This document shows, in pieces, positions 28,903-54,288 of a DNA stretch of 64,000 nt. The translations under genes were made by a program, and so were the position numbers. Under the pieces are notes generated by a model, which was not told where the DNA came from, searched no databases, and saw only the letters and a program-made list of their open reading frames with translations. The first letter of the stretch is position 1, and each line of letters opens with the position of its first letter. This DNA is from Heterostelium multicystogenum (taxonomy: Eukaryota > Evosea > Eumycetozoa > Acytosteliales > Acytosteliaceae): NCBI GenBank assembly GCA_003667245.1, contig RCNN01000032.1:1-64000 (forward strand). Reading direction: 5' to 3'.

Positions 28903-29419
28903 TTTTTTTTTTTTTTTTTTTTTTTTAATCATCCAGGTGATCATAATTTATTAATTAAATAATAAATGGTGAGGGTCAGAACCTCCAGTGTACTATATAT
29001 ATATATATTTCACGACACAGAGGGACAGTCCGTGATTGTCCGAAATATATTTTTTTTTTTCATTTTTCCCCGTTTTCCTGTTTTTTTTTTTTTTTTTTTG
29101 TTTGTATTCATATCCAAATGAAATATTAATCTATAAATGAACGCGGGAGCGCAGATTGGGGATATCGCAACCAGAGATGGTGAAAATGTTCCAGTCTTTT
29201 TTGAACTCATTGATAGCAACGGTGGTGGCTGGTTCAGCAGTGCCTTTGGAAAGTCAGCGATAAACAGAGCTTATGGTAATTTATTGCAACCAAGTTTTTT
29301 ATAGTACTTGCTTGACAACTTAGGAATGTTAGTGAAGTCAAGTGTCTTATCACCATACAGATTGTTGGACACCACTCTCCATATGGCTCTGATTATGCAC
29401 GCGGTTAAATGCAGAAACG

Positions 29420-29421
<2 letters not shown>
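28903..29421 (-). mobile_element. 5'-truncated TRE-type non-LTR retrotransposon, 3' end
   Basis: The reverse complement matches 53590-54114: the last ~100 codons of the zf-RVT-bearing ORF2, the 3' UTR and a 24-base poly(A) tail (seen here as the T-run 28903-28926). It is truncated in the ORF at 29421. Beyond that point the element strand reads a 48-base T-tract (A-run 29422-29469 on plus). Small differences from the other copy, including an extra base in the 3'-UTR knot and changed homopolymer lengths, show it is a separate insertion. Confidence 0.85.

Positions 29422-29469
<48 letters not shown>
29422..29469. repeat. 48-base A/T homopolymer
   Basis: Uninterrupted A-run on the plus strand. 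Read on minus it is a T-tract between a structured RNA candidate and the 5' edge of the truncated TRE. True length is likely uncertain because such runs sequence poorly. Confidence 0.9.
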
Positions 29470-51638: not shown

Positions 51639-51647
51639 CTATGTTTT
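51639..51647. repeat. Target-site duplication, left SINE-like copy (tail side)
   Basis: CTATGTTTT at 51639-51647 equals the sequence at 52060-52068 on the head side. Because the element's tail is a T-run on this strand, the last four T are ambiguous; five bases (CTATG) are certain. Confidence 0.7.
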
Positions 51648-52059
51648 TTTTTTTTGTTTTTTTTTTTTTTTTTTGTTGTTATAACCATACAGTTGTTTAT
51701 TTAAGGTAGGGTTTAGAAGCCTACAGATTTCTTTTTTACAACCACAGGCCGGTTGTGATGACCATCATTTTATAGAGGCATGACTGCCTATTATTATTTG
51801 GAGCAAGGTGTTTCAACAGTGGACTGTTAAGTATTTCGAAGCGACAGAAGATTTTAAGAGTACACCAATGGTTTACGTAGTTGAGGGCTTCGCTTGTCAA
51901 TTTACATATTCTTCATGGCGGGATGGTATCATACAGACTTGAAAGTACATGGGTTCACTTGAAGTGTATGGGAAAAAACTGGAAAACCTGGGATTCGAAC
52001 CCACGACCCAAGGCGTCACAAGCAGACTACCATACCACATCAGCTATTCTTCCTTGGGC
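51644..52059 (-). mobile_element. tRNA-derived SINE-like retroposon, left copy
   Basis: On the minus strand the element begins GCCCAAGG at 52059. It has an A-box-like TAGCTGATGTG (52036-52046) and a perfect B box GGTTCGAATCC (51991-52001), then a ~300-bp body unrelated to tRNA and a poly(A) tail (T-rich run 51644-51674). The body has small inverted repeats (AGGCA/TGCCT, ACAACC/GGTTGT, ACAGT/ACTGT). It is nearly identical to the inverted copy at 52753-53159 but is flanked by a different duplication. The A/B pair would allow internal Pol III transcription. It lies ~78 bp behind the tRNA-Arg at 52137-52209 in the same orientation. No protein is encoded; open frames crossing it are chance. Confidence 0.75.
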
Positions 52060-52068
52060 CTATGTTTT
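52060..52068. repeat. Target-site duplication, left SINE-like copy (head side)
   Basis: CTATGTTTT abutting the first base of the element; matches 51639-51647. Confidence 0.7.
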
Positions 52069-52136
52069 ATTCTCTGGTATGTGGATATGGATAAAATCTA
52101 TTTTTACCGCATCCGTTAAAAATAAATTTAAATATT

Positions 52137-52209
52137 TGAGGCATGCAGGGCTTGAACCTGCGACCTATTGGTTCGTAGCCAATCGCTCTTCCAACTGAGC
52201 TAAAGCCCC
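52137..52209 (-). tRNA. tRNA-Arg(ACG)
   Basis: A 73-nt cloverleaf without intron. D arm is GCTC/GAGC, anticodon stem ATTGG/CCAAT with loop CTACGAA (anticodon ACG, read as ICG), T stem GCAGG/CCTGC with loop TTCAAGC. The acceptor stem GGGGCTT/ATGCCTC has one U-U mismatch at 6-67 and one G-U. Identical to the tRNA at 52629-52701 in inverted orientation. Internal A box TAGCTCAGTTGG and B box GGTTCAAGCCC are intact. Confidence 0.9.
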
Positions 52210-52628
52210 ATTTTTATTTTTAATGACTGTATAAGCATATTCTTGAGTGGATTTTGTGCCTCTTTCTAAGGTGGGCTTAGTCAAATTCTTCTTTTAAGTT
52301 CCCCATTGGACTGCAGGAACTGACAGTTGGTAAAAAACTGAAATAGTATTAATCTTGAGCAACAAAATTGTCTCTATTTTCTTCTCTTCTTTTCTTCTTC
52401 TTTCGATACGGATACGGTCAAAGTTGTCCTTGGAAAAATTGTTTTCGAAATGTCTTTATAGGTGGGGAATACCTCTTTGTGATCTATTTTAAATGTGTTA
52501 GCAGGACGTTGAGAAGTCCTCTGGGAGAATGCTAATTGCTGAGATAAGTCGTTTTGGTTTTGATTTTTGTTTTGAAAAAGAATCTTATTATTTTTTAAAT
52601 TTATAAAAAATAATGGGGGGATAAAAAT
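52210..52628. other. Spacer between inverted tRNA genes
   Basis: About 420 bp, unique, with a pyrimidine-rich patch near 52380. Immediately upstream of each tRNA both sides share a short AAAAAT. No other feature seen. Confidence 0.6.
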
Positions 52629-52701
52629 GGGGCTTTAGCTCAGTTGGAAGAGCGATTGGCTACGAACCAATAGGTCGCAGGTTCAAGCCCTGCATGCCTC
52701 A
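52629..52701 (+). tRNA. tRNA-Arg(ACG)
   Basis: Identical 73-nt sequence to the minus-strand tRNA at 52137-52209, with the same ACG anticodon and the same acceptor mismatch. The next ~29 bp of 3' flank, including a T5 terminator, are also shared between the two copies before the flanks diverge. That shows the tRNA and its flank were duplicated before the SINE-like insertions. Confidence 0.9.
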
Positions 52702-52743
52702 AATATTTAAATTTATTTTTAACGGATGCGAAAAAATTTGCAG

Positions 52744-52752
52744 ATCTTTGTA
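52744..52752. repeat. Target-site duplication, right SINE-like copy (head side)
   Basis: ATCTTTGTA directly before the element head; repeated exactly at 53159-53167 after the poly(A) tail. Confidence 0.8.
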
Positions 52753-53159
52753 GCCCAAGGCAGAATAGCTGATGTGGTATGGTAGTCTGCTTGTGACGCC
52801 TTGGGTCGTGGGTTCGAATCCCGGGTTTTCCAGTTTTTCCCCATACACTTCAAGTGAACCCATGAACTTTCAAGTCTGTATGATACCATCCCGCCATGAA
52901 GAATATGTAAATTGACAAGCGAAGCCCTCAACTACGTAAACCATTGGTGTACTCTTAAAATCTTCTGTCGCTTCGAAATACTTAACAGTCCACTGTTGAA
53001 ACACCTTGCTCCAAATAATAATAGGCAGTCATGCCTCTATAAAATGATGGTCATCACAACCGGCCTGTGGTTGTAAAAAAGAAATCTGTAGGCTTCTAAA
53101 CCCTACCTTAAATAAACAACTGTATGGTTATAACAACAAAAAAAAAAAAAAAAAAAAAA
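52753..53159 (+). mobile_element. tRNA-derived SINE-like retroposon, right copy
   Basis: About 385 bp plus a 22-base A tail (53138-53159). The tRNA-like head has an A-box-like segment at 52766-52776 and a perfect B box at 52811-52821, 34 bp apart. A complete cloverleaf cannot be drawn because the anticodon stem is poor, as expected for a SINE head rather than a working tRNA. The body matches the left copy with only a few substitutions. The flanking 9-bp duplication ATCTTTGTA marks retroposition. It starts 51 bp after the tRNA-Arg at 52629-52701 and points the same way. It would need proteins from a LINE such as a TRE, but its 3' end does not resemble the nearby TRE 3' end. Confidence 0.8.
52811..52821 (+). 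promoter_or_regulatory. Pol III B box of the SINE-like head
   Basis: GGTTCGAATCC, a perfect match to the eukaryotic B-box consensus, present in both copies. Confidence 0.85.
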
Positions 53160-53167
53160 TCTTTGTA
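53159..53167. repeat. Target-site duplication, right SINE-like copy (tail side)
   Basis: ATCTTTGTA following the A tail; identical to 52744-52752. Confidence 0.8.
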
Positions 53168-53194: not shown

Positions 53195-53899
53195 AAAGGC
53201 CTCAGTGAAATCTACGGGAAGTTGTTTAAGAAGGATCATCCTTACATCAGAAGAACTGATGGTCAAAGTACCATTTCCCTGCTGACTAGATTCTCTTTTG
53301 ATGAGCAGTTCAAGAACATAGCCAAAATCAAAGGTCCGGCCTGTCGAGACGTTATATTCCGTTTCTTCGCCCACGCTCTCCCCATTAACCATCTCAGGGA
53401 AGAGCATAACTGTGTCCTGTGTGGTCTTTCAATAGACTCAAAGCCATATGACCATTATTTCTTTGGTTGCATTGCTCTTTTTGGGTTAACTTTACTATCA
53501 AAAATCAAGAATCAATATAGAAGATATTGCGGTTACAATCTCCTAAACTGGTCTATCACTAACATCTCTTTTATAAATACCAAATCAGGTAAGAGAACCA
53601 AACTGCCGTTCCTGCATTTAACCGCGTGCATAATCAGAGCCATATGGAGAGTGGTGTCCAACAATCTGTATGGTGATAAGACACTTGACTTCACTAACAT
53701 TCCTAAGTTGTCAAGCAAGTACTATAAAAACTTGGTTGCAATAAATTACCATAAGCTCTGTTTATCGCTGACTTCCAAAGGCACTGCTGAACCAGCCACC
53801 ACCGTTGCTATCAATGAGTTCAAAAAAGACTGGAACATTTTCACCATCTCTGGTTGCGATATCCCCAATCTGGTGCTTCCGCGTTCATTTATAGATTAA
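53195..53899 (+). pseudogene. TRE ORF2 C-terminal fragment with zf-RVT domain
   Basis: About 235 codons, open and without a start. The sequence has RFFAHALPINHLREEHNCVL, then CG...YDHYFFGC, the C-x2-C...H-x4-C zinc-binding motif of the zf-RVT domain at the end of LINE-type reverse transcriptases. Endonuclease and polymerase parts are absent, so the copy cannot move itself. It ends at TAA 53897-53899, followed by the 3' UTR. Confidence 0.85.
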
Positions 53900-53982
53900 T
53901 ATTTCATTTGGATATGAATACAAAACAAAAAAAAAAAAAAAAACAGGAAAACGGGAAAAATGAAAAAAAAAAAATGTATTTC

Positions 53983-54012
53983 GGACAATCACGACTGTCC
54001 CTTTGTGTCGTG
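53983..54012 (+). other. Predicted H-type pseudoknot in the TRE 3' UTR
   Basis: GGACA (53983-53987) pairs with TGTCC (53996-54000), and CACGAC (53990-53995) pairs with GTCGTG (54007-54012). The strands interleave, giving a compact pseudoknot. The copy at 29011-29041 (minus) keeps both helices with one extra G in the second. It may be a reverse-transcriptase recognition structure. Confidence 0.5.
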
Positions 54013-54288
54013 AATATATATATAGAACACTGTGAGGTTCTGACCCTCACCATTTATTATTTAATTAATAAATTATGATCACCTGGATGATTAAAAAAAA
54101 AAAAAAAAAAAAAATTTTTTTTAAACTCGAGTACTTATATATTTTTAGATCTCAAAGAGCCACTTCACCTCTTTTAAACATAAGAATCTAACTAACCCAT
54201 TATATCAATAAGGGCATGAAAAATAAATTCTGAAAGAAAATGTAAATTTATTTAATCATATAAATATAAGTGTTAATTTATTATTAAA

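Follow-up and report, generated by a model that had tools for sequence, protein, structure and literature searches.

A tRNA-related SINE family located downstream of tRNA genes in the dictyostelid amoeba Heterostelium multicystogenum

We have found a young family of tRNA-related SINEs in a dictyostelid amoeba, Heterostelium multicystogenum. The family displays tRNA-downstream targeting, with a same-strand tRNA gene upstream of 62 of 66 copies and within 160 bp of 43 of them, which bears out what an earlier note had proposed from two copies. Very probably, a TRE3-like LINE mobilizes the SINE in trans and passes its own targeting on to it.

Two copies lie in the window, which is the whole stretch of 64,000 nucleotides that was analysed. 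Its relevant features are:

51639..51647, - strand: target-site duplication CTATGTTTT (+ strand reading) of the left SINE, 3' side; up to 4 bases possibly tail
51648..51674, - strand: A tail of the left SINE, a T run on the + strand
51675..52059, - strand: left SINE copy, 385 bp, full length
52060..52068, - strand: target-site duplication CTATGTTTT (+ strand reading) of the left SINE, 5' side
52136..52210, - strand: tRNA-Arg(ACG), target gene of the left SINE
52628..52702, + strand: tRNA-Arg(ACG), target gene of the right SINE
52744..52752, + strand: target-site duplication ATCTTTGTA of the right SINE, 5' side
52753..53137, + strand: right SINE copy, 385 bp, full length
52766..52777, + strand: A-box-like TAGCTGATGTGG of the right SINE
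52811..52821, + strand: B box GGTTCGAATCC of the right SINE, perfect
52834..52838, + strand: TTTTT run of the right SINE, possible Pol III terminator, directly behind the tRNA-like head
53138..53158, + strand: A tail of the right SINE
53159..53167, + strand: target-site duplication ATCTTTGTA of the right SINE, 3' side; first A possibly tail
53199..54093, + strand: LINE-A copy, TRE clade, 5'-truncated, with the C-terminal part of ORF2 and the 3' UTR, then an A tail

The earlier note had described two near-identical elements of about 385 bp, each with a perfect B box, an A-box-like segment, an A tail and its own 9-bp duplication, which start 50-80 bp downstream of a tRNA-Arg(ACG), run in its direction and stem from two retroposition events rather than one duplicated block. 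This description held in the details examined. The copies differ at 4 positions over 385 bp (98.96% identity) and their orientations diverge; both have a perfect B box GGTTCGAATCC, an A-box-like TAGCTGATGTGG begins at position 14 of the element, and the gaps between tRNA gene and element are 76 bp (left) and 50 bp (right). Because the target duplications differ (ATCTTTGTA at 52744/53159, CTATGTTTT at 51639/52060), the two SINEs arrived separately. The tRNA genes belong to a separate 116-bp inverted duplication (52102-52217 / 52621-52736, 98%) that ends before either SINE insertion site. The LINE-A fragment beyond the right SINE and the TTTTT run at element positions 82-86 had not been mentioned. 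Elsewhere in the window, an open frame at 62880-63965 matches Acytostelium subglobosum LB1 with 71% identity over 92%.

With the right SINE copy as query, the 29.7-Mb genome yielded at least 51 matches (40 of 102 first-look candidates scored). A 34-base B-box pattern, with up to 3 mismatches allowed, gave 65 matches genome-wide and 0 for the reversed control; all 34 bases are exact in 48 of the 65, the pattern itself containing the B box. These 65 matches and one older fragment make up the 66 copies covering the B-box region, and 50 of them (those starting no more than 3 bases from the 5' end and reaching position 375 or beyond) were used for duplications and divergence. Measured against the majority sequence of these 50 near-full-length copies, the median divergence is 0.52% substitutions (range 0-1.83), and the SINE family is therefore young. 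Older SINE pieces, many at 69-91% identity, adjoin younger copies. Exact duplications of 7-14 bp (median 9.5), all different, flank 30 of the 50 copies, and re-paired flanks give such duplications in 1% of 2458 trials. No exact duplication of at least 7 bp was found in the other 20, among which are copies whose 5' flank now carries a LINE-A tail (e.g. C55, C56, C92, C2). The elements are short, non-coding and multicopy, with an A/B-box head, an A tail and target-site duplications, as SINEs are. At C18, the 5' part of a SINE copy is inverted (L052 502-370 and 517-694), as in twin priming. The earlier note had named a lack of further copies, or their confinement to one larger segmental duplication, as outcomes that would count against it; what we found are many copies with independent duplications at different tRNA loci.

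A same-strand tRNA gene ends within 160 bp upstream of 43 of the 66 copies and farther upstream of another 19, and none was found in the flanking DNA examined for the remaining four (C18, C95, C217, C340). With 400 tRNAs assumed, 0.05 of the 66 copies would be expected by chance in this interval behind a tRNA, and random SINE placement is rejected. In 38 near copies the 5' end is intact, at 48-152 bp (median 77) downstream of the tRNA, in agreement with the TRE3-type rule (40-150 bp downstream, same orientation); in the 5 near copies with a truncated 5' end, the matched part begins -1 to 85 bp from the tRNA. Since these tallies sought same-strand upstream tRNAs only, strand bias was taken from the nearest tRNA on either strand. 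The examined flank of 62 copies contains at least one tRNA, and for 61 of these copies the nearest one is upstream and on the same strand. At the remaining copy, C92:108070, a tRNA-Lys lies 4.6 kb off on the far side and a tRNA-His upstream beyond a LINE-A. No opposite-strand or 3'-side tRNA was found within 300 bp of the 43 near copies, the examined flank reaching about 100 bp past the tail in L050-L072. The tRNAs at these copies comprise 16 amino-acid types and some left unnamed by ARAGORN, and Rfam at gathering scores, run on 47 loci, returned tRNA and nothing else.

A view independent of the SINE was obtained from a covariance search, which listed at least 63 tRNAs (63 of 1723 candidates scored), of which the 53 outside contig C17 were used. 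A same-strand SINE starts within 160 bp downstream of 11 of these 53. Within 1 kb of them there are 12 same-strand downstream SINE copies, 0 same-strand upstream copies and 2 on the opposite strand, both of the latter being the other member of the inverted pair in the window. Contig C17 itself carries 10 of the 63 listed tRNA matches, all on one strand, and is perhaps the mitochondrial genome.

Selection could in principle produce such a pattern, had the SINE inserted at random and survived only behind tRNA genes in a compact genome. Dictyostelid genomes are described as gene-dense in the available text of PMC5006619. If survival were the sole filter, however, copies would also be expected upstream of tRNA genes, in reverse orientation and in other spacers, whereas the nearest tRNA is almost always upstream on the same strand, the 38 intact 5' ends stay at 48-152 bp and the copies are young; we consider this explanation very unlikely.

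Still less credible is spread of the copies by duplication of tRNA loci or gene conversion in place of retroposition. The window tRNA pair is itself a 116-bp inverted duplication, and some of the 703 pairs formed by 38 loci have sequence in common: for 8 pairs it lies in the 250 bp ahead of the tRNA, for 4 between tRNA and SINE, and for 23 in the 300 bp that follow the SINE. Yet the near cases span 16 tRNA amino-acid types, 30 target duplications are distinct and no more than 4 of the 703 pairs have a gap in common, the window pair among them, while the 23 downstream-sharing pairs would be expected where older elements sit behind the same kind of site. The distinct target duplications rule out segmental duplication as a general account, and retroposition next to tRNA genes is the reading that we retain.

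An off-target reading of the copies that lack a near tRNA was also rejected, as in most of them the tRNA is separated from the copy by LINE-A, LINE-B, an LTR element or another SINE. In 16 of the 19 farther cases there is an intervening element in the gap (LINE-A, LINE-B, an LTR element or a younger SINE) or the SINE is split by a later insertion, several gaps being partly covered. The tRNA-His at C92 was found in a 551-bp stretch past the LINE-A, its position having been predicted from the length of the C49 LINE-A. Beyond LTR elements, tRNAs were found at C77, C168 and C80; at C217, which has a same-strand LTR directly upstream, there was none within the 3 kb upstream examined. Further upstream stretches yielded a tRNA at C2 and C44, and at C159 only after neighbouring pieces were joined; the further stretch at C340 yielded no tRNA. 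The intervals at C27, C159 and C362 had no independent element match. The element library holds one entry from C159 and two from C168; C159 is not counted as explained because its entry derives from C159 itself, and the C168 LTR element is backed by its own 99% terminal repeats. The upstream LTRs at C18 and C340 were dropped as same-strand support, the LTR being inverted there.

The LTR-type elements lie on the same strand between tRNA and SINE at three places (L024/L074, L029/L075, L033/L076). Their terminal repeats are about 300 bp long with 99% identity at C77 and C168, and none were found in the C80 element. These elements behind tRNAs are reminiscent of Skipper-2.

The 3' flanks of the tRNA genes have a feature of their own. 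A palindrome-like CCGCATGCGG (core GCATGCGG, at most 1 mismatch) occurs 17-27 bp behind 39 of 60 tRNA genes, compared with 0.7% of random 100-bp stretches, and is present in the window at 52107-52115 and 52720-52730. Intact SINE 5' ends, at 48 bp or more, lie past it. It is possibly a factor site. Because CCGCATGCGG has 39 sites genome-wide and the reversed control 30, it is meaningful only at its tRNA spacing. As for an external B box as targeting cue, one was present at 3 of 38 joined empty sites, with a background of 3.9%.

Two LINEs were considered as partners of the SINE. LINE-A was reached through the LINE part behind the right SINE and, with 40 of 67 candidates scored, has at least 43 matches. 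The C49 copy contains a 452-codon open frame followed by a 1184-codon frame at a -1 offset, with a 19-base overlap. Endonuclease (EN) and reverse transcriptase (RT) domains were detected in the 957 of 1184 ORF2 residues tested, a putative C-terminal zinc finger was recognized by eye with no Pfam match in the same 957 residues, and the best relatives with solved structures are LINE-1 ORF2 proteins. A tree of 20 rows (18 hand-picked proteins, LINE-A with 957 of its 1184 ORF2 residues, and LINE-B) places both LINEs inside the dictyostelid LINE group with support of 100/99, the outgroup branches being long. LINE-A has an Acytostelium subglobosum sequence as its sister and LINE-B groups with two Heterostelium album sequences, the rows bearing no TRE3 or TRE5 labels. 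The genome contains at least two TRE-clade LINEs.

Placement was inspected for 10 LINE-A and 2 LINE-B copies, hand-picked. Five of the 10 LINE-A copies lie 59, 79, 84, 99 and 140 bp behind a same-strand tRNA, and three (C32:53199, C246, C77) lie behind a SINE that is itself behind a tRNA. At C217 and the second window fragment, no same-strand tRNA was near in the examined DNA. That fragment, a LINE-A 3' end at 28926-29422 (- strand), has no nearby tRNA by ARAGORN. Junction repeats of 9-10 bp, scored with no shuffled control, occur at the LINE-A copies of C55, C96 and C246. C92 and C49 have 8-9-bp words off the 5' junction, C217 and C77 have 6-bp words and the two window copies have T-rich words; no junction word was found at C108. 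Because the SINE and LINE 3' ends have nothing in common beyond A runs, the pairing of SINE with LINE rests on placement and duplication length. A 20-base SINE match inside LINE-A ORF2 was discarded as being at chance level (E 0.95).

The earlier note had suggested that a SINE with this targeting would be a parasite of a tRNA-directed LINE. A TRE-clade LINE with the same placement does exist; that it moves the SINE is a step we infer. LINE-A is favoured as the driver because its placement fits the published TRE3 range and its 9-10-bp duplications fit the SINE median. It is rather unlikely that LINE-B or another TRE-clade LINE moves the SINE instead. LINE-B copies, too, stand downstream of tRNA genes, within SINEs into which they inserted, and have a poly-A end, and the 13-bp duplications of the two inspected copies fall inside the SINE range. 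LINE-B is also nearer than LINE-A to the tree group containing a D. purpureum sequence, and D. purpureum is reported, in the available text of PMC5006619, to have only TRE3-like sequences. The 9-10 bp of three LINE-A copies are nonetheless nearer to the SINE median of 9.5 than the 13 bp of LINE-B, in small numbers of copies.

With LINE-A as the preferred partner, it is hypothesized that the SINE RNA would consist of a tRNA-like head, an unrelated body of about 300 nt and a poly-A end, and that the ORF2 protein of a tRNA-targeting TRE-clade LINE would take this RNA in trans. By analogy with TRE5-A and TRE3, Pol III factors on the tRNA gene may recruit the LINE targeting complex, which would nick the DNA some 50-150 bp downstream of it. 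The nick would then prime reverse transcription, beginning on the A tail and always giving one orientation.

The best alignments of the SINE head, among 43 distinct tRNA sequences, are with tRNA-Val(AAC) (z 6.9) and tRNA-Cys (z 5.9) versus base shuffles, the B box driving much of the score. In the predicted fold, bases 1-9 pair with 46-54 and no cloverleaf was found, and the whole-element fold is no better than shuffles (z -0.08). At SINE positions 82-86 there is a T run. Among 50 copies, it is T5 in 37, T6 in 9, T4 in 2 and shorter in 2. A run of at least four T starts within 13 bp behind 41 of 60 tRNAs (38 of these T4 or T5), where 11% of random stretches would be expected to have one, and the SINE run has the length of these local tRNA terminators. 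The head's natural transcript is thus possibly only about 86 nt, and full-length Pol III transcription of the SINE appears doubtful on the evidence of the sequence. The SINE run is followed by C, a context in which yeast Pol III is leaky; 8 of the 41 local tRNA terminators are also followed by C.

The RNA could instead come from Pol II or read-through, the head being a relic or a targeting aid, which is compatible with the targeting reading and which we regard as possible, at somewhat less than even chances. That 46 of the 50 copies carry T5 or T6 after the head, alongside the terminator-like runs behind the tRNAs, is consistent with such a source. On the other side, 48 of the 65 matches retain an exact B box, though the pattern used to find them includes it, and the leaky context would allow Pol III to pass, yet the tRNA terminators that share it weaken this point.

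A self-feeding cycle may also be envisaged, albeit as a speculative and improbable one, in which each SINE B box would strengthen the Pol III platform and draw in more SINEs and TRE LINEs. A fresh B box would then stand about 130-230 bp behind the tRNA's own. If true, the cycle would account for the nesting of elements in stacks behind individual tRNA genes, and the external B boxes reported downstream of tRNA genes in D. discoideum could be worn-down SINE remains.

The earlier note knew of no described dictyostelid SINE with tRNA-downstream targeting, and our literature search, which covered few subscription papers, likewise found no description of a dictyostelid SINE family behind tRNA genes. 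RepeatMasker at default settings counted 88 SINEs in D. discoideum and 57 in D. purpureum, with no families or tRNA placement given in the available text (PMC4683709). The term SINE occurs 0 times in the available text of PMC5006619, and the tRNA-targeted retroelements covered in the accessible parts of reviews are LINEs, LTR elements or a shortened LINE (PMC5006619, PMC5911963, PMC5633606). That a SINE follows the same narrow target rule would mean that the choice of target is carried by the LINE protein acting in trans rather than by the copied RNA. The SINE is a small natural tag for testing how TRE3-type elements read Pol III genes, and it shows a low-harm way of life in a gene-dense genome.

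TRE3 elements of Dictyostelium are L1-clade LINEs that, in the available text of PMC5911963, lie 40-150 bp downstream of tRNA genes in the same orientation and have an oligo-A end. LINE-A resembles them in placement, -1 frame offset, EN and RT, whereas the SINE is 385 bp long with no coding capacity and a tRNA-related head, and the external B box, the reported TRE3 cue in D. discoideum, is absent as a signal at the 38 SINE empty sites. TRE5-A.2, an ORF2-less variant of D. discoideum TRE5-A, is non-autonomous, is moved in trans by the LINE and lands at the LINE's proper place, according to the available text of PMC5633606. The SINE is likewise non-autonomous and placed as a tRNA-targeting LINE is, and we infer its movement in trans; TRE5-A.2, however, is a shortened LINE located upstream of tRNA genes, whereas the 3' end of the SINE has only A runs in common with the LINEs found here. 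EhSINE1 of Entamoeba histolytica is likewise part of an amoebozoan LINE/SINE pair. Mammalian tRNA-derived poly-A SINEs have a tRNA-like head with a B box, an unrelated body, an A tail and target-site duplications, and are moved in trans by an L1-type LINE. Those SINEs are found genome-wide, whereas the present family is restricted to one side of tRNA genes and one range of distances from them.
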